Part shown: positions 3,439-36,260 of the stretch, one piece after another
Layout: each line of letters begins with the position of its first letter
Position numbering within the stretch: the stretch's first letter is position 1
Source: a virus
Reading direction: 5' to 3' (one strand)
IMG/VR virus record: IMGVR_UViG_3300037234_000284
Span: 1-36,260 of that record
DNA length: 36,260 nucleotides
Made by a program: the position numbers and the translations under genes
Notes under the pieces: model-generated
Database searches by the model: none
What the model was told of the DNA's origin: nothing
Seen by the model: the letters and a program-made list of their open reading frames with translations, nothing else

Positions 3439-3783
3439 ATGTTCCGAGAATTATTAGAAAGTAATGGGATTGAAGTTAAATGGTGTTTAGAAACTCACTT
3501 TAATTCCCACAATATTTATAGTGCAGAAATAGAGTGTGATACTTATTACGGTATGTTACATGCTCGAAAGTACACTATGAATCATAGAGCAATAGAACAA
3601 GCGTGTATGCAATACTGTATAGAAAATGGTGTTAAGTTGGAGTGGTTGAGTATTGGCATTAAAGTAATTTATAATAAAACAAAAAATTTACGTCAAATAC
3701 TATCATCAACATTGTTAAGCGATAAAGACTTCAAACTAATCGCAACAATCTTCGCACACGATATTAAAATCATTGCAACATAG
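3439..3783 (+). CDS. Hypothetical protein (114 aa)
   Basis: Behind an AGGAGG site (3426-3431). Mixed alpha/beta composition with several cysteines (C16, C31, C53, C57) that are not paired as CxxC. Its last codons contain the -35 element of the promoter at 3773-3801, so the next transcription unit starts inside this gene. It is the last gene of the first rightward block. No family recognised. Confidence 0.65.
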   Translation: MFRELLESNGIEVKWCLETHFNSHNIYSAEIECDTYYGMLHARKYTMNHRAIEQACMQYCIENGVKLEWLSIGIKVIYNKTKNLRQILSSTLLSDKDFKLIATIFAHDIKIIAT

Positions 3784-3801
3784 ATAGATATATGGTACAA
3801 T
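3773..3801 (+). promoter_or_regulatory. Sigma-A-type promoter upstream of leader RNA A
   Basis: TTGCAA (3773-3778), a 17-base spacer, and TACAAT (3796-3801) preceded by TATGG, an extended -10 context. Transcription should begin near 3808. It drives a leader of about 170 bases before the gene at 3979. Confidence 0.7.
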
Positions 3802-3804
3802 TAA

Positions 3805-3960
3805 TAGAGGGATATTCTCTCTAGGTACTCACACTACCTTACAGTTGATAATTAATATTAGTTAGAATGCGTTGTTATTCTTAACTAGAGGAGTGTGCTT
3901 GTTTTCATCAACGAAACTTGTATGCGTGTGAACCTCTAATTAAGCGTAACAGCGTTTTTA
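3805..3960 (+). ncRNA. Structured leader RNA A with pseudoknot and U-tract
   Basis: No ORF fits this 195-base gap, but it folds strongly. A first hairpin pairs 3805-3812 with 3816-3823 (8 bp). GGTA/TACC closes a small hairpin at 3824-3838. Then one long interrupted stem: 3869-3877 with 3947-3955; 3880-3891 with 3933-3944 (11 of 12 pairs); 3893-3898 with 3920-3925; 3901-3905 with 3913-3917. The apical loop CATCAAC (3906-3912) is complementary to GTTGAT at 3844-3849, giving a pseudoknot. A second long-range match joins TCACAC (3829-3834) to GTGTGA (3926-3931). The stem ends in GCGTTTTTA, as in a Rho-independent terminator, just before the AGGAGG site of the next gene. Leader B at 33066-33228 shares loop, pseudoknot partner and U-tract. 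It could be an attenuator, an antitermination element or a small RNA. No known RNA family recognised. Confidence 0.7.
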
Positions 3961-3978: not shown

Positions 3979-4257
3979 ATGTATTTAGATAGTGTATTTT
4001 CGATATTAGAAAATGAATTGAAAGAAAAGAAAAAGTTATTAGAAAGATTTGTTGATGATAAAATATTGGTTATCAATAAAGAAACAAATGAAATTGCTAT
4101 ATACAAACACACTTGTGACTGCGAACAGTGTAAAGACAGAGGCGAGTTTGAAGTATTTTTAAATGATATAAACGATGAATATTTTGATTGCATAAAGTAT
4201 TCAGAATTCAAAAGAGATTGGGACTTTGTAATTAAGATGCAAATGTTAGGTTATTAA
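3979..4257 (+). CDS. Hypothetical protein (92 aa) with coiled-coil and CxCxxC motif
   Basis: First gene behind leader RNA A, with an AGGAGG site at 3967-3972. Residues 8-25 are a Lys/Glu/Leu helix of coiled-coil type. A CDCEQC motif (about 49-54) could hold a metal. The protein ends in an aromatic-rich acidic region. No family recognised. Being first behind a structured leader makes it the most direct target of whatever regulation that leader provides. Confidence 0.65.
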   Translation: MYLDSVFSILENELKEKKKLLERFVDDKILVINKETNEIAIYKHTCDCEQCKDRGEFEVFLNDINDEYFDCIKYSEFKRDWDFVIKMQMLGY

Positions 4258-4968: not shown

Positions 4969-4998
4969 TTGTTATTATTATATTTATTATGTTATACT
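4969..4998 (+). promoter_or_regulatory. Promoter of the XRE/GIY-YIG/replication block
   Basis: TTGTTA (4969-4974), 18-base spacer, TATACT (4993-4998) in a TGT-TATACT extended -10 context. The expected start (about 5002-5005) lies at the edge of the GAGGAGGT ribosome site, so the leader would be very short, in strong contrast to leaders A, B and C. Confidence 0.55.
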
Positions 4999-5015: not shown

Positions 5016-5177
5016 ATGAATCTACGAAAATTAAGAAAAGAGTTAGGATTAACTCAAACAGAATGTGCTATTAAGTGTAAGGTTAGCCTTATGACTTGGC
5101 AAAATTGGGAAAGGGGAGTTACTACTCCTAGTCCTGATAACATGGTTAAGATCAAAAATTTATTTAAGGAAGTGTAG
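5016..5177 (+). CDS. XRE/Cro-type helix-turn-helix regulator (53 aa)
   Basis: A minimal HTH_3 domain: LRKLRKELGLTQTECAIKC (3-21), V-S-L-M-TWQNWERG (23-34) as turn and recognition helix, and PSPDNMVKIKNLF. Start chosen at 5016 because GAGGAGGT lies 6 bases upstream; an ATG at 4989 sits inside the -10 region of its own promoter and cannot be used from that transcript. At 53 residues it is a bare DNA-binding domain, Cro-like in size. It is followed after one base by the GIY-YIG gene. Autoregulation of the adjacent promoter is likely but inferred. Confidence 0.8.
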   Translation: MNLRKLRKELGLTQTECAIKCKVSLMTWQNWERGVTTPSPDNMVKIKNLFKEV

Positions 5178-5178
5178 T

Positions 5179-5619
5179 ATGAAAAAATTACAAGGTGTAT
5201 ATATTATAACAATAAATAATAAAATATATGTCGGTAGTAGTTCTGACTTATTATCTAGGAAGTATAATCATTTATGTGCTTTGAAAAACAAATCACACCC
5301 TAATAAAAAAATGCAACAAGAATACAATGGTCACGAAGAATATGACTTTAAGATTTTATTAGAAGTTTGTTCAAAGGAAGATTTAAGAATAAAAGAGCAA
5401 CAATTCATTATTGAACTAAATAGTTTAAATAATGGATTCAATAATAACTATGCAGTTCGCAAAACTTATAAAGACAGAATGAATGGGTTTAAAATTTTCC
5501 CAATATACTTTACGGAAGAAAAGTTAGACAAGATTAGAGCGGTAGCAAAAGCAAATTTCATGAGTACCAAAGATTTTATATTAACTGCTATTGAAGAAAA
5601 GATGATTAAGGAGAAGTAA
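5179..5619 (+). CDS. GIY-YIG endonuclease with C-terminal ribbon-helix-helix-like region
   Basis: 146 residues. The N-terminal domain has GVYIITI (6-12) and KIYVGS (15-20), the GIY and YIG motifs, an Arg at 27 on the following helix and Glu73 in the 'LRIKEQQFI' helix, matching the metal-binding Glu of the family. A linker (about 95-105) leads to IYFTEEKLDKIRAVAKANFM (109-128) and STKDFILTAIEEKM, the strand-helix-helix layout of ribbon-helix-helix DNA-binding domains. GIY-YIG enzymes of this size include homing and recombination-associated nucleases, in which a separate module gives sequence specificity. It is placed between an XRE regulator and the replisome organizer. It may be a free-standing homing nuclease or a phage enzyme that cuts competitor DNA. 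Confidence 0.8.
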   Translation: MKKLQGVYIITINNKIYVGSSSDLLSRKYNHLCALKNKSHPNKKMQQEYNGHEEYDFKILLEVCSKEDLRIKEQQFIIELNSLNNGFNNNYAVRKTYKDRMNGFKIFPIYFTEEKLDKIRAVAKANFMSTKDFILTAIEEKMIKEK

Positions 5620-5620
5620 T

Positions 5621-6337
5621 ATGGCGAAGAAAAGAATGGTTAGTAATCAAATAGTAGATAGTGATGATTTCCTAGATATGCCATTGTCTGCTCAATGTTT
5701 ATACTTTCATTTATTAGTTAGAGCTGATGATGAGGGATTTATTAATGGTGTTAAAAAAGTAATGAGAATGATTGGTGCTAGGGATGATGATTATAAAGTA
5801 TTAGTTATTAAATCATTTGTAATGCCATTCGAGAGTGGTGTATGTGTTATTAAGCATTGGTTATTCCATAATACGATTAGAAAAGATAGGATAATTGAAA
5901 CGGTACATATTGATGAAAAAGCGAAAATTAGTGTTAAAGAAAACAACGCATATACTTTTAGTGCCGTACAACTGACTGACACGTGTCACCCTAGTATAGA
6001 AGAGATTAGATTAGAAGAGATTAGTTTAGTTAAGAGTATAGTCGATTATCTCAATAAAAAAGCAAGTGTTAATTATCGAAGTACAGGTAAAAAAACTAAT
6101 TCTTTAATTGATGCAAGAATTAATGATGGATTCACTTATAATGATTTTGTAATTGTTATTGATAAAAAATGTAAAGATTGGTTAAATACTGATATGCAAC
6201 ATTATCTAAGACCTGAAACATTATTCGGTACTAAGTTTGAAAGTTACTTAAATCAACTAGAAGTTATTAAGTCAACACAATCTAACAATAAACTTGATGG
6301 ATTTCAAGAAGTTAGAGAAATGTTAAAAGGAGAATAG
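5621..6337 (+). CDS. Phage replisome organizer (replication initiation protein)
   Basis: 238 residues. The N-terminal part (VDSDDFLDMPLSAQCLYFHL, residues 12-31, then a winged-helix-like region to about 95) matches phage replisome organizers. The C-terminal region (about 138-212), with VDYLNKKASVNYRSTGKKT, ARINDGFTYNDFVIVIDKKC and WLNTDMQHYLRPETLFGTKF, is the conserved phage C-terminal domain found after such organizers (TIGR02220 type). These proteins bind repeats in the phage origin and, with the helicase loader, bring in the host DnaB/DnaC helicase. The loader follows at 6340. The linker-coding DNA holds a palindrome and direct repeats that may be the origin. No phage helicase or polymerase is present, so elongation should use host enzymes. 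Confidence 0.85.
   Translation: MAKKRMVSNQIVDSDDFLDMPLSAQCLYFHLLVRADDEGFINGVKKVMRMIGARDDDYKVLVIKSFVMPFESGVCVIKHWLFHNTIRKDRIIETVHIDEKAKISVKENNAYTFSAVQLTDTCHPSIEEIRLEEISLVKSIVDYLNKKASVNYRSTGKKTNSLIDARINDGFTYNDFVIVIDKKCKDWLNTDMQHYLRPETLFGTKFESYLNQLEVIKSTQSNNKLDGFQEVREMLKGE
5977..6024 (+). other. Candidate phage replication origin inside the initiator gene
   Basis: A perfect 12-base palindrome TGACACGTGTCA (5977-5988) is followed by two identical 13-base direct repeats TAGAAGAGATTAG (5997-6009 and 6012-6024; period 15), then further TTTAG/TTAAGAG partial copies. They fall in the low-conservation linker between the two domains of the replisome organizer. In several Bacillota phages the organizer binds iterons within its own gene. 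The period and location fit; function is inferred. Confidence 0.5.
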
Positions 6338-8731: not shown

Positions 8732-9112
8732 ATGAGCAAATACGGAAATACGAAAGTTGATCTATACGGAATTAAATTTGATAGTAAATTAGAACTTTAT
8801 GTATATCAGATGTTCAAATCTAAAAAATACGATATAAGGCGTTGCGAAGATAGTTTCCTACTAATAGACAAGTTTAAGCACTACAATGTGTTAAAAGGGA
8901 AATTAGAGGGCATACGCGCTGTTAAATACACTCCTGACTTCTTAGTAAGACGAGGTAATGAAACTATCGTGCTAGAAGTTAAGGGATTCCCAAGTAAAGA
9001 TTATCCGTTGCGCAAGAAAATGTTTCTACAGAAATACGGAAACGATTATATGTTTATCGAGATACATAGTCAAAAGGAATGTTTGCAAGTTTTGGATCAG
9101 CTAGATAGTTGA
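8732..9112 (+). CDS. DUF1064 endonuclease-like protein (PD-(D/E)xK fold)
   Basis: 126 residues. It begins KYGNTKVDLYGIKFDSKLELY (3-23), the DUF1064 opening, then YTPDFLVRR (67-74) and IVLEVKGFPSKDY (79-91). Glu21, Asp69, Glu82 and Lys84 fit the catalytic set of the restriction-like PD-(D/E)xK fold. DUF1064 proteins occur in many phages and are thought to be nucleases acting on replication or recombination intermediates, similar in scale to T7 endonuclease I or RecU. The end of the gene contains the -35 element of the promoter for leader RNA C. Confidence 0.8.
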   Translation: MSKYGNTKVDLYGIKFDSKLELYVYQMFKSKKYDIRRCEDSFLLIDKFKHYNVLKGKLEGIRAVKYTPDFLVRRGNETIVLEVKGFPSKDYPLRKKMFLQKYGNDYMFIEIHSQKECLQVLDQLDS

Positions 9113-9137
9113 GATTATATAATTAATGTGTTATGAT
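9109..9137 (+). promoter_or_regulatory. Promoter upstream of leader RNA C
   Basis: TTGAGA (9109-9114), a 17-base spacer and TATGAT (9132-9137) with an extended TGT immediately before it. The -35 overlaps the stop of the DUF1064 gene. Transcription should start near 9144, exactly where the closing helix of leader C begins. Confidence 0.7.
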
Positions 9138-9143
9138 AAATAA

Positions 9144-9258
9144 GCCGAGAGATTACAGAACTAATACACTTGTATTGAAGCAAGTAATGACATTAAATTC
9201 TCTCGGCGAGAAGTTGTTATTTGTTTCAGTATGGGTGTATTTTCTATAGGAGGTATTT
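9144..9258 (+). ncRNA. Structured leader RNA C
   Basis: A 9-bp closing helix pairs GCCGAGAGA (9144-9152) with TCTCTCGGC (9199-9207). Inside is a hairpin AATAC/GTATT with loop ACTT (9163-9176) and a dyad TAATG-A-CATTA (9185-9195). The 3' strand of the closing helix can instead form TTCTC/GAGAA (9198-9202 with 9208-9212), so two folds exclude each other. The tail GTATGGGTGTATTTTCTATAGGAGG-like (taken in parts) resembles the 3' ends of leaders A and B, but the loop pseudoknot of those is absent. It precedes the gene at 9259. Switch-like control of the downstream genes is possible. Confidence 0.6.
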
Positions 9259-9516
9259 ATGAATTTAGATGAAGCAGTTGATAAAGTATTATTGGGTGTT
9301 AATAGGTCTATATCTTGGAGTGTTTTATATAATAAACTTTGTGAATTATTGGGTGATGATTTTGATAGTTTTATGCCCTTCTATGAAAATGTTGATGAAA
9401 TGATGTGGGAAAAAGGATTTAAGCAAGATATGAAAGATATACCAACTTATTATCGAAAAGACTACAAACAGAATAAAATCAAAAGAGTAAATAAAAATCA
9501 AGGAAAGTTATTTTAA
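9259..9516 (+). CDS. Hypothetical protein (85 aa)
   Basis: First gene behind leader RNA C; AGGAGG site at 9248-9253. Acidic first half with helical pattern (MNLDEAVDKVLLGVNRSISW) and a basic tail (YKQNKIKRVNKNQGK), a charge split often seen in small nucleic-acid- or partner-binding proteins. No family recognised. Confidence 0.6.
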   Translation: MNLDEAVDKVLLGVNRSISWSVLYNKLCELLGDDFDSFMPFYENVDEMMWEKGFKQDMKDIPTYYRKDYKQNKIKRVNKNQGKLF

Positions 9517-10811: not shown

Positions 10812-10972
10812 TGACTAACCTAATCATAGCAGGCATTATAACAACGCTAATCATCGGTTACAGGTGTGTTAAGCGGTGGGTTGATACAAAGTGTCAAGAG
10901 AACTTTGATACTGGATTTAAGCTAGGTAAGATGGTGTCAAATGCAATTAATAAATATGAGGAGGATAAATAA
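10811..10972 (+). CDS. Small membrane-anchored protein (53 aa)
   Basis: An N-terminal hydrophobic segment (about 3-18, NLIIAGIITTLIIGYR) followed by a soluble tail that ends NAINKYEEDK. Coupled by one-base overlaps at both ends (10811 and 10972). Likely anchored by the N-terminus with the tail in the cytoplasm. Confidence 0.65.
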   Translation: MTNLIIAGIITTLIIGYRCVKRWVDTKCQENFDTGFKLGKMVSNAINKYEEDK

Positions 10973-11517
10973 TGAGTTTATTAGAACACGCAAAAAGAGA
11001 AATTGAGATAATGAAATTATTAGAAAGTGGTAACAAACAAGATGGAGATGGTATTTTAGAAGAATACGCATTTTTAGTATATGATAGTGCTTATGAATTA
11101 GTAAAGAAATTCAGTGAACAAGGTCATAGTGGTATGAGTGCGAACTTAACACTTAATATATATAAGAAGTTGGCAAATTATGAACCGCTTAGTAAGTTGA
11201 CTGGCGTAGAAAACGAATGGAGAGAGTGGACTACATATGGTAGTGAAACCGATAATCCAAGTACATCAAGACAAAATAAAAGATGTAGTAGGATATTCCA
11301 AGAAAAAGATGGGGACACATATATTATAAGTCATTACATATTTAGAGAACCGAGTGGGTGTTGTTGGACTAATGGCATTAGAAAAAACATAACATTTCCA
11401 TACGCATTAGAAAAAGAAATATATATTGATGTTCCAAATAGTGATGTTGATACAAAAAGATTCGTTGATGAATATGAAGAGGGCATAGAGATATACAATA
11501 AAATTAAAGGAGAGTAG
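10972..11517 (+). CDS. Conserved phage protein of unknown function (181 aa)
   Basis: The sequence pattern LLEHAKREIEIM at the N-terminus, KKFSEQGHSGMSANL (about 45-59), YKKLANYEPLSKLTG (about 64-78), QNKRCSRIFQ (about 101-110) and NITFPYALEKEIYIDVP near the C-terminus is one seen in many phages of unrelated hosts, always without an assigned function. The stop is followed after two bases by the next gene. The conserved GHSG and RCSR motifs make an enzymatic or nucleotide-binding role possible, but that is inference. Confidence 0.7.
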   Translation: MSLLEHAKREIEIMKLLESGNKQDGDGILEEYAFLVYDSAYELVKKFSEQGHSGMSANLTLNIYKKLANYEPLSKLTGVENEWREWTTYGSETDNPSTSRQNKRCSRIFQEKDGDTYIISHYIFREPSGCCWTNGIRKNITFPYALEKEIYIDVPNSDVDTKRFVDEYEEGIEIYNKIKGE

Positions 11518-32569: not shown

Positions 32570-32893
32570 CTAGTTAATTCTTTCTATTGTTTGTCCGTTG
32601 TCATTTAGTAAATAACAATCTTGAATCGTTATGATTTTTCTTATTGTCGTTCCTTGTATATATTCTATAACACAATATGTTTCACCTTCTGTAATTCCCG
32701 CTTCTTCATCCGCCCATAATCTATCGCCTATCATTGAATCAGGTAAGTTTTCTACTTCTTTATTCTCCTCATTTGCATATTCTACTGCGAGCTTTAACAC
32801 TTCTTCTAACTCTACTTCTTTTCTCCAACTAACATCTTTAACTCCTGATGTAATGTACCATCCATTAGGCACGTCTCTTACTTTAATAATCAT
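32570..32893 (-). CDS. First gene of the late operon, hypothetical (107 aa)
   Basis: Follows the strong leftward promoter at 32941-32969 by about 45 bases. The protein is acidic with alternating strand and helix (MIIKVRDVPNGWYITSG, EVELEEVLKLAVEYANEENK) and ends TIQDCYLLNDNGQTIERIN. No family recognised. As promoter-proximal gene it might control late expression. Confidence 0.6.
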   Translation of the reverse strand: MIIKVRDVPNGWYITSGVKDVSWRKEVELEEVLKLAVEYANEENKEVENLPDSMIGDRLWADEEAGITEGETYCVIEYIQGTTIRKIITIQDCYLLNDNGQTIERIN

Positions 32894-32940
32894 ATCTTTC
32901 TCACTCTCTCTTTCTTACTATCTAACTGTCTACTGTCTTT

Positions 32941-32969
32941 ATTATAGCAAATAATCGCTTACCTTACAA
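32941..32969 (-). promoter_or_regulatory. Strong promoter of the leftward operon
   Basis: On the minus strand TTGTAA (32969-32964), 17-base spacer, TATAAT (32946-32941) with extended TGC. The only promoter found for the leftward genes, so the whole 20-kb late block may depend on it plus any internal ones I did not recognise. Confidence 0.75.
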
Positions 32970-33029: not shown

Positions 33030-33059
33030 TTGACATAGCGTGTAAAGGTATGGTAAGAT
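33030..33059 (+). promoter_or_regulatory. Rightward promoter upstream of leader RNA B
   Basis: Consensus TTGACA (33030-33035), 18-base spacer, TAAGAT (33054-33059) preceded by TATGG as at the leader A promoter. Start near 33066. The complement of the -35 also resembles the core of a Spo0A box (TGTCAA), but any consensus -35 does. Confidence 0.7.
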
Positions 33060-33065
33060 GATGTT

Positions 33066-33228
33066 GTGAAAGGAGTTGATTAGAAAGTTAAGGCTTCGTG
33101 CCTTTATCAAAGGACTTGATATCCCCCTATCGAGTTCTCCGATAAATGCTTGAATGAATTTCTCCTATCAGTTATAAACTGACTTATGCAAGATTGGATT
33201 CATCAACTGATTTTGCATACGTGTTTTT
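33066..33228 (+). ncRNA. Structured leader RNA B with pseudoknot and U-tract
   Basis: The gap from promoter to the gene at 33251 contains no ORF but folds well. Hairpins: AAGGC/GCCTT (33090-33104); GGACTTGAT with ATCGAGTTC (33112-33137, 9 pairs, C-rich loop ATCCCCCT); TCAGTT/AACTGA (33168-33182); and TATGCAAGATTGG with CTGATTTTGCATA (33185-33219, 13 pairs, loop ATTCATCAA). The last loop includes ATCAAC(T) (33202-33208), complementary to AGTTGAT at 33074-33080 near the 5' end. CGTGTTTTTATA follows the last stem, about 20 bases before the AAGGAGG site. Loop, partner and tail are shared with leader A (3805-3960) although the other stems differ, so the element appears conserved. Confidence 0.7.
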
Positions 33229-33250
33229 ATAAAATATAAGGAGGATTATT

Positions 33251-33475
33251 ATGAAGTTTACACCTAGACACAATGTTTCAAGAGATAAAAGAGTTGATAT
33301 TAAACTTGATGAAGTAGAACAAGAATTATTAGGTAACATCTTTGATAGTTATATTGAAAACCAAGAGGTATTTTTCAAATCTATAAAAGACATTTACCCA
33401 AGTGTTACTACCGCAGAAATAATTGGTTATATAGTTGGTGCTAAAATGTTAAAAGAGAAAATATTAAACAGATAA
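33251..33475 (+). CDS. Hypothetical protein behind leader RNA B (74 aa)
   Basis: MKFTPRHNVSRDKRVDIKLD, then EVEQELLGNIFDSYIENQEV and a C-terminal helix (TAEIIGYIVGAKMLKEKI). AAGGAGG site 8-14 bases upstream. Basic start and acidic middle; could be a small regulator. As first gene after a structured leader it would be tightly controlled. No family recognised. Confidence 0.6.
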   Translation: MKFTPRHNVSRDKRVDIKLDEVEQELLGNIFDSYIENQEVFFKSIKDIYPSVTTAEIIGYIVGAKMLKEKILNR

Positions 33476-33813: not shown

Positions 33814-33987
33814 ATGGAAGATAAACATAAATTATTAGAATTGTTAAGAGGTACTATGTATGATAAAGAAGATGCAAAAGAAAGGTTAAAGGATAAAATT
33901 ACTGATTTGCAAGACACGGTTAATCGACTTACTATAGAAATTTTAGAATATGATTTAGTTATTAAAAAAATAAAGGAGAAAATATGA
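33814..33987 (+). CDS. Small coiled-coil protein (57 aa)
   Basis: [40 protein letters not shown] and [17 protein letters not shown]. Continuous heptad-like helix from about residue 18 to the end. AAGGAGG 5-11 bases before the ATG. The stop overlaps the start of the Spo0A-like gene (ATGA at 33984-33987), so the two are co-translated and may act together; a dimerising partner would fit. Confidence 0.65.
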
Positions 33988-34430
33988 ACAGACAAGAAGT
34001 AATAGATTTATTAAAGGAATTTGGAGTTATAAAATCAATAGACATTAAAGAAAATATTGCATTAACATTTGAAGAAGAAAAGCACGAACTATTAAAGCAC
34101 ATAAGCAAGGTGTTACAGGATTTAGGTATGCCAACTCACATTAGAGGTTATCAGTATGTTAGAACGGCAATTTCAATGGTGTGTAATGATATTACGTTGT
34201 TAGGTAATGTTGTTAGAGGTTTGTATGTAGATATTGCAGGTCAGAATCAAACAACAGGATCAAGAGTAGAACGAGCAATCAGACACGCAATCGAGGTAGC
34301 ATGGGAACGAGGTAATCCAACATACATTAACGATTTATTCGGTTACACTGTTTCATACAAAAAGACTAAGCCTACAAGCGGTGAGTTTATAGCAAAGTTA
34401 GCTGATGAACTTAGACTAGGTAATATATAG
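33984..34430 (+). CDS. Spo0A C-terminal (effector) domain protein, no receiver domain
   Basis: 148 residues. From about 36 to 146 it matches the DNA-binding domain of Spo0A, the sporulation master regulator: [20 protein letters not shown] (44-63), [20 protein letters not shown] (65-84), [20 protein letters not shown] (90-109), [20 protein letters not shown] (118-137) and ADELRL (140-145). The B. subtilis recognition helix [15 protein letters not shown] is kept without change. The usual N-terminal receiver (about 120 residues with the phosphorylated Asp) is absent; only about 35 residues precede the domain. The free effector domain of Spo0A is known to be active without phosphorylation, so this could bind 0A boxes constitutively. 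Possible roles: phage switch, block or trigger of host sporulation. The next gene is 12 bases away. Confidence 0.9.
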
Positions 34431-35479: not shown

Positions 35480-35701
35480 ATGAAATTAGATAAGACAATA
35501 ATTATCATTGGTAGTTTAGTGAAAGTAGACGAATACGATCATTTGATAGAAGTAGATGGCTTCTTGTGTGAATACGGCAAGTTATATAATACTACGGCAG
35601 TTTGCTTAGTTGACAATCACTCTTATAGTTTTGATGAAGTTGAAGAAGTGTGGAATAAAGTTGACGATGAAACTTACAAAAGACAGTATACGAAAGAATA
35701 G
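35480..35701 (+). CDS. Hypothetical protein (73 aa)
   Basis: MKLDKTIIIIGSLVKVDEYD, then a strand-rich middle (GFLCEYGKLYNTTAVCLVDN) and an acidic-to-basic tail (YSFDEVEEVWNKVDDETYKR). Good GGAGG 7 bases upstream. Beta-rich small protein; no family recognised. It precedes the second copy of the winged-helix gene. Confidence 0.55.
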   Translation: MKLDKTIIIIGSLVKVDEYDHLIEVDGFLCEYGKLYNTTAVCLVDNHSYSFDEVEEVWNKVDDETYKRQYTKE

Positions 35702-35710
35702 GAGGACAAT

Positions 35711-36091
35711 ATGTTAAACGAAAGACAGGAACACAGTTTAAAAATTATGATAGAGAATTGTTACGGTAAATCACAGATTAAGAATAAGATAGTATTAAAT
35801 TATTTATTCAATGTTGACGATGAAAACGGTACTGCTTATTTAGTACCTAGTGAATTTAATTCATCATGCGAGGCTCGACAAATGAGCGATGATTTCTTAG
35901 CGATAACAATGTGTCAAGATAATCCGTATGTAGTAGTATCATCAAGATCAGGAATTTATATAACTGATTGCATCGAAGAAAAGAATGCTTATATATTACG
36001 TTTAAGAGATGAAGCGAACGCTAAACATAAATTAGCCAGTGATATTGCTAGATTGCCATTAAACGGTCAAATAAGGGTGATGGCGATATGA
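35711..36091 (+). CDS. Putative winged-helix DNA-binding protein, copy 2
   Basis: Near-duplicate of 81-461 (about 116 of 126 residues identical by hand count). Changes include M53C and D68C, which put two cysteines into this copy, plus conservative swaps. Many third codon positions differ as well, so the two copies have been kept under selection and are not an assembly overlap. GGAGG precedes the start. It is followed by a YopX-like gene, as copy 1 is. Same tentative function. Confidence 0.6.
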   Translation: MLNERQEHSLKIMIENCYGKSQIKNKIVLNYLFNVDDENGTAYLVPSEFNSSCEARQMSDDFLAITMCQDNPYVVVSSRSGIYITDCIEEKNAYILRLRDEANAKHKLASDIARLPLNGQIRVMAI

Positions 36092-36104
36092 TGGAGGTAG
36101 AGTA

Positions 36105-36260
36105 ATGTATAGAATATGGGATAAATTTACTAACAAGGTACTCCCACAAAATACAAGATACTATGAATCACAAGAAGGGATTGTTGTTATTGAAGATAGA
36201 GGTGGATATGCAATAACTATCAGTCAAAACCATTACATAGTCCAACAATGCACAGGATTA
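36105..36260 (+). CDS. YopX-family phage protein, copy 3 (partial, cut by window end)
   Basis: 52 codons visible: MYRIWDKFTNKVLPQNTRYY through HYIVQQCTGL. The N-terminal MYRIWDK and the IVQQCTGL block match the copy at 458, but the sequence between is unrelated, so this is a diverged paralogue joined to a nearly unchanged winged-helix gene. The last 25 bases equal 589-613. Confidence 0.75.
   Translation, partial: MYRIWDKFTNKVLPQNTRYYESQEGIVVIEDRGGYAITISQNHYIVQQCTGL
36236..36260 (+). repeat. 25-base exact repeat of 589-613 at the window end
   Basis: CATAGTCCAACAATGCACAG and the next five bases occur at 589-613 and again as the last 25 bases of the window. Both lie in the same block of YopX-like genes (encoding IVQQCTGL). 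The start of the window does not equal its end, so this is not terminal redundancy in the simple sense. Confidence 0.7.

Follow-up and report, generated by a model that had tools for sequence, protein, structure and literature searches.

The structural genes of this phage (terminase, portal and capsid) run leftward and its early genes rightward from a long leader RNA, leader B, and the question raised by this locus is whether that leader belongs to an RNA element that governs more than one transcription unit and, if so, how such an element would act. The DNA analysed, referred to below as the window, is a stretch of 36,260 nt from a viral contig. An earlier note on it had named two leaders, A and B, and had read them as copies of one conserved pseudoknot element. 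Both leaders are present; however, the window also holds a third, leader C, which the note did not name.

Leader B (all leader features described here are on the + strand) follows a promoter with an extended -10 region (TG) at 33030-33059, assigned by consensus only, in which TTGACA (33030-33035) and TAAGAT (33054-33059) are separated by 18 nt. From the same consensus, the RNA is predicted to start at 33066, and it extends to 33250. The 5' segment AGTTGAT, at +9 to +15 (33074-33080), is complementary to ATCAACT (33202-33208), which lies at the tip of a 13-bp hairpin with arms at 33185-33197 and 33207-33219. The hairpin is followed by the U-rich tail CGTGTTTTTATA (33220-33231, exact match), the Shine-Dalgarno sequence AGGAGG (33239-33244) and the first early gene (33251-33475), which encodes 74 aa of no known family. 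The promoter, AGTTGAT, the 13-bp stem, the tail and the ribosome site all lie where the earlier note had placed them. Its assignment of ATCAAC(T) to the loop was only partly accurate: the loop is 9 nt long (ATTCATCAA) and contains ATCAA, while the 3' arm begins with the C and the T, so that AGTTGAT can form all seven pairs only if both loop-closing pairs open. In the predicted fold, TTCTCC (33161-33166) pairs with the Shine-Dalgarno sequence. A reading frame upstream of the first gene, at the beginning of leader B (GTG AAA GGA GTT GAT TAG), seen by eye, was set aside, as the other leaders give no support for it. On the opposite strand, the divergent late promoter (TTGTAA-17-TATAAT, extended -10; 32893-32969) gives a purine-rich leader, AAAGACAGTAGACAG...AGAGAGAGTGAG, in contrast to B.

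Leader A has a comparable organization. Behind an extended -10 promoter at 3773-3801 (TTGCAA-17-TACAAT; predicted start ~3807), the 5' segment GTTGAT (3844-3849) is complementary to ATCAAC (3907-3912) within the CATCAAC of the apical loop of a long hairpin (3869-3954, -28.5 kcal/mol), followed by TTTTTATA and by a first gene of 92 aa (3979-4257). The early genes behind leader A run rightward up to a DnaD-like replication gene at 5621. This stretch also contains a small Cro/CI-type HTH gene (5016-5177, +), which additionally matches Aca2_YdiL and has its own extended -10 promoter at 4969 with a very short leader, and a gene for a GIY-YIG-type homing endonuclease (5179-5619, +) directly before the DnaD-like gene. 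Leaders A and B have in common the 6-bp GTTGAT/ATCAAC pair, the 9-mer TTCATCAAC and GTTTTTATA; the last lies 25-28 nt upstream of the start codon in both leaders and occurs three times in the whole window, every copy on the + strand. Leader A shows the weakest pairing with itself (6 bp, -6.3 kcal/mol), and its 5' end matches the loop of leader B (8 nt, -11.3 kcal/mol) better than its own.

Leader C (9143-9258) came from a promoter search of the window and was not chosen by its pairing. Its promoter, TTGAGA-17-TATGAT with an extended -10, is located at 9109-9137, and the predicted transcript opens with (A)GCCGAGAGA. This 5' segment (9144-9152) is complementary to TCTCTCGGC (9199-9207) at the apex of a very long hairpin (9163-9241; arms 9163-9187 and 9217-9241), and a U-rich tail, TATTTTC (9238-9244), precedes AGGAGG (9248-9253) and a first gene of 85 aa (9259-9516). 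The 9-bp duplex of the first transcribed bases with the apex has a predicted energy of -18.1 kcal/mol, which was matched by 3 of 1000 shuffled 5' segments and by none of 1000 shuffled targets. The stretch behind leader C encodes a Tad3-like Thoeris inhibitor (10972-11517, +; E 1.4e-29). Leader B is followed, within its unit, by a gene for a Spo0A C-terminal (DNA-binding) domain (33984-34430, +; E 1.7e-37), so the host is likely a Bacillota spore-former. The presence of this gene also suggests that the phage interferes with sporulation of its host.

Copies that are 87-88% similar over ~560 bases and include a 126-aa gene occupy the two ends of the window (35700-36260 versus 70-613); they represent either an overlap from a circular genome that has diverged or a gene duplication. 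As the ends are alike, the genome is probably circular or permuted. Leaders B, A and C would then appear to open three successive early units. The earlier note put B some 30 kb from A, which holds on the linear map (29 kb), but on a circular or permuted genome B would lie only ~6.4 kb upstream of A.

Whether these leaders differ from ordinary sequence of the same composition was examined by shuffling. A 7-bp self-complementarity occurs on average 1.4 times per shuffled leader B; thus the pairing of leader B, taken alone, is no evidence, since such a match is expected by chance. The folds are more stable than those of shuffled sequences, with z scores of -3.93 for B (equalled by 1 of 200 shuffles), -2.6 for A (3 of 200) and -6.55 for C (0 of 200). 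For the elements common to A and B, a 6-mer together with its complement was shared by 1.5% of shuffle pairs (p 0.015), and a 9-mer by 15% (p 0.15). The full layout, defined as a segment at the 5' end that can pair with the apex of a stable hairpin located just upstream of the Shine-Dalgarno sequence, was reached in 4 (A), 12 (B) and 4 (C) of 300 shuffles. When an extended -10 promoter, a hairpin immediately upstream of the Shine-Dalgarno sequence and a 5' segment (K) matching the hairpin apex over at least 6 nt were all demanded, a detector picked exactly A, B and C among the 65 + strand Shine-Dalgarno-to-start matches of the window. It is therefore the arrangement, not the pairing alone, that exceeds chance, and it extends past leaders A and B.

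In sequence, by contrast with its layout, the element is not conserved, as judged from the contigs compared, and the nearest relatives lack it at the corresponding position. The sole relative holding leader B is a near-identical contig (L002, 99.9%). No long leader was found at the matching divergent promoter either in L004, the closest late-gene relative with sequence there (84% terminase identity), or in L006, an early-gene relative; the divergent region in the first 820 bases of L004 contains two apparent tRNA genes, seen by eye, and this phage has none there. Beyond L002, no sequence homologue of leader B was detected in viral contigs, phages or plasmids, and DNA searches with A, B and C in phages and plasmids gave only short chance matches. 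A scan of the viral contigs with the pattern TTCATCAAC..TTTTTATA..GGAGG returned L002 and five chance matches. Protein homologues of the gene behind B were limited to the near-identical contig and two unrelated 30% matches, whose upstream DNA contains no such leader, and none were found for the gene behind A. No Rfam family matched the window at the gathering score, and the P4 CI, IsrK and c4 RNA families gave no match on the leaders at E up to 1-5. Under loose settings, freshwater-2 (A, E 0.4; G, E 0.08), RAGATH-7-assoc (A, E 0.25) and microRNA models (the long hairpin of C) appeared far under their curated scores and were discarded. Thus the word "conserved" in the earlier note is not supported in its usual sense, and its pseudoknot reading is half right in that what recurs is the pairing rule and not the sequence. 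Two rightward early units with differing stems and a like long-range pairing are indeed present, and the layout recurs in leader C and in other contigs.

Those other contigs supplied leaders D, E and G, from loci found via a single-strand-annealing (Erf/Rad52-type) gene. Leader D (L026) has K ACTAGGAA, ~38 pairs and TTTTTT, and lies ~2.9 kb downstream of the single-strand-annealing recombinase gene; leader A lies ~2.2 kb downstream of the same gene type. Leader E is carried by a Roseburia-labelled contig (L115), the top-scoring relative among the genome contigs; its promoter matches the consensus at 12 of 12 positions, its 11-nt K (AAGTTGCAGTT) is additionally locked within a 5' hairpin, and its textbook-type terminator ends in TTTTTT with a DnaD-type gene behind. 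Leader G (L099) combines a 10-nt K (ACAATTCGAT) with a textbook-type terminator ending in ATTTTTT and a phage replisome organiser behind. The sequences of these three leaders are unrelated, while their layout is alike. Among 89 leaders with promoter, hairpin and U-run, a K of at least 8 nt was found in six, whereas each of two reversed-apex controls gave 0. Of these six, C, D and E were known beforehand, and those of L048 and L184 are doubtful. L184 and L048 (K of 8-9 nt) were left out of the count of further leaders because their hairpins are unconvincing, as was L069 (8787-8919), which has a 7-nt K and no U-run. In L184, the weaker leader at 357-506 has a 9-nt K that matches the hairpin apex. 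A second set of 123 loci, screened by the same criteria, yielded no new leader with a K of at least 8 nt, only E again, and the layout is thus rare rather than general. Homologues of leader E, sought in 397 genomes (the family of G007), were promoter-only or tail-only matches, with no second leader.

The pairing is also specific to each leader. The 5' segments match their own apices over a mean of 8.5 nt (-12.4 kcal/mol) versus 4.1 nt (-5.5 kcal/mol) for the apices of other leaders, and only 2 of 720 re-assignments of the 5' segments score equally well, which fits own pairing plus an A/B swap. When the K pairing was counted beyond the loop, into the 3' arm, leaders A and D reached only p ~0.06, which is not significant. 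As D, E and G were selected by K, independent weight falls on C and less on A and B; among A-E and G, the pairing of C alone is unbiased evidence.

The tails and the folding of the leaders bear on how the arrangement might work. Runs of at least four T precede the Shine-Dalgarno sequence in all four of leaders A-D versus 5 of 36 ordinary starts, and runs of at least five in 3 of 4 versus 0 of 36, the longest being 5 (A), 5 (B), 4 (C) and 6 (D). A U-run directly behind a stable hairpin is clear in A, D, E and G. As terminator tails, the U-runs of A, D and E are good, those of C and G moderate, and that of B poor unless a 4-nt spacer is allowed, since its U-run is 4 nt away from an AU-rich stem. 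A terminator scan that allows no bulges detects none of the hairpins of A-E and G. In simulated nascent transcripts of C, D and G, the K:apex pair probability is 0.95-0.99 and drops to 0 when the 3' arm has been synthesized; the maximum for B is 0.35, and in A and E this pairing is not predicted in the nested minimum fold. In C, D and G, the helix between the 5' end and the loop and the full hairpin thus appear to form one after the other and to compete, and a transcription attenuator is favoured over a static pseudoknot because the K:apex pairing comes first and the hairpin wins once the 3' arm is transcribed. The static pseudoknot of the earlier note fits these three leaders less well than competing folds do. 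B is the weakest case, with its AU-rich stem, its distant U-run and a Shine-Dalgarno sequence that is possibly paired.

Taken together, the layout (promoter; K within the first 45 nt; hairpin with a K-complementary apex; U-run; Shine-Dalgarno sequence; first gene) resembles that of an attenuator, and we put the chances at about even that leader B belongs, with A and C, to a set of three attenuator-like leaders that lie close to their promoters in this window. Promoters (by consensus), hairpins, K:apex complementarity, U-runs, their recurrence and the nascent dominance of K:apex pairing in C, D and G are computed features; from them we infer that the hairpin terminates transcription, that K antagonises it, and what would set the choice. 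When the apex emerges from RNA polymerase, K would pair with it and delay or block the hairpin, so that transcription would proceed into the genes; K would be antagonistic because the apex is the obligatory nucleation point of the hairpin. If K were occupied, by a 5' structure as in leader E, by a factor or by another leader RNA, the hairpin would zip from the loop and serve as an intrinsic terminator, leaving a short leader RNA as the sole product. Such a kinetic attenuator, in which K blocks terminator nucleation, fits the modelled folding, best in C, D and G. The terminated leader RNA could itself be a signal, its exposed loop pairing in trans with K of new leaders and promoting termination, a gene-dose feedback that would need no antisense gene; A and B, with one common code, would then be wired together, and C would have a private code. 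We regard this extension as quite unlikely.

Several other readings were weighed against the attenuator. A static 5' pseudoknot or structured leader might shield early mRNA from decay that depends on the 5' end, or the hairpin might serve RNase III, with the U-runs incidental. 5' structures stabilise mRNA in Bacillota, and K lies at the extreme 5' terminus of leader C and at +9 of leader B. In A and B, the RNA separating K from the stem may be long enough for both helices to exist together, and the nearly continuous helix of leader C would be a suitable RNase III substrate. However, the spacer of ~10 nt in C and D appears too short to span the full hairpin, and therefore both helices could probably not form completely; moreover, U-runs are enriched before the Shine-Dalgarno sequence, and the hairpins of E and G resemble plain terminators, so that we hold this reading to be rather unlikely. 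It is somewhat less probable still that the GTTGAT/ATCAAC code is common to A and B by chance, in what would be ordinary leaders of an AT-rich phage. The 7-bp self-match and the common 9-mer are each frequent in shuffles, and leader B is found nowhere beyond the near-identical contig, but the joint layout is rare in shuffles, is met again in C and is specific to its own apex. Leader C thus already weakens the chance reading, under which unrelated leaders should show the layout at a similar frequency; the second contig set gave no new K of at least 8 nt.

For leader B in particular, ribosome-site blocking may be a real alternative output, instead of or in addition to attenuation, as far as the modelled fold goes. 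As the sole explanation, a translational switch in which TTCTCC holds the Shine-Dalgarno sequence, and the hairpin and K shift the balance, seems improbable to us: the unpaired probability of this site is 0.05, among the lowest of the early genes, but 10 of 100 shuffles equal it, so that the occlusion is not significant, and the sites of A (0.36) and C (0.44) show no occlusion beyond chance. A cis-acting antitermination RNA that modifies RNA polymerase for downstream terminators, like the put RNAs of HK022, is very improbable. More than one copy is found, in early leaders right behind early promoters, as would suit put; however, put RNAs, which act on RNA polymerase, keep their sequence from copy to copy, and the leaders here have little beyond layout in common.

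The likeness to put is thus that a single phage carries a structured RNA in at least two of its early leaders, and the difference is that the sequence is not conserved among these leaders. The leader of T4 gene 32 likewise places a pseudoknot at its 5' end and, behind it, an A/U-rich region that contains the ribosome site, but it is a translational repressor site of one gene, without a terminator. The nearest phage parallels are the P4 CI RNA and IsrK of Gifsy-1. In P4, internal complementary segments of a phage leader RNA control termination before the replication genes, and in IsrK, read-through of a leader terminator gives a short RNA and an mRNA (PMC4825925); unlike the leaders here, P4 (seqA-seqC) relies on CI, a separate RNA that is processed and base-pairs with two flanking targets. 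In mechanism, the nearest systems are the attenuators of pT181 and pIP501, in which a pre-emptor in the leader keeps the terminator before the replication gene from forming and antisense RNA lifts this block (PMC5703833, PMC4878617). As in the repC and repR leaders, a terminator in the leader directly precedes the beginning of a replication gene, and leader E similarly holds K within a 5' hairpin. In contrast, the anti-terminator of those systems pairs with the 5' arm of the terminator, whereas K pairs with the apex or loop, and their control is by antisense RNA from the opposite strand. No minus-strand sigma-70-like site was found within leaders A, B, C, D and G; leader E has minus-strand promoter matches at its edges, and the lone minus-strand site near B (32969) is outside the leader and serves the late genes. 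As K targets the loop and no antisense promoter lies inside A-D and G, these leaders are not members of the pT181 family and at most work alike. A description of this layout was not found in the open-access full-text literature, which does not prove that it is undescribed.

If the attenuator reading is true, some phages of Clostridia-type hosts would control their early and replication operons by an attenuator that is flexible in sequence. The rule that the 5' end matches the loop would be kept while the bases change, and such elements would therefore be invisible to alignment-based RNA searches. This would be a compact and easily re-coded switch, and it would explain the timing of several early units without an obvious antiterminator protein.
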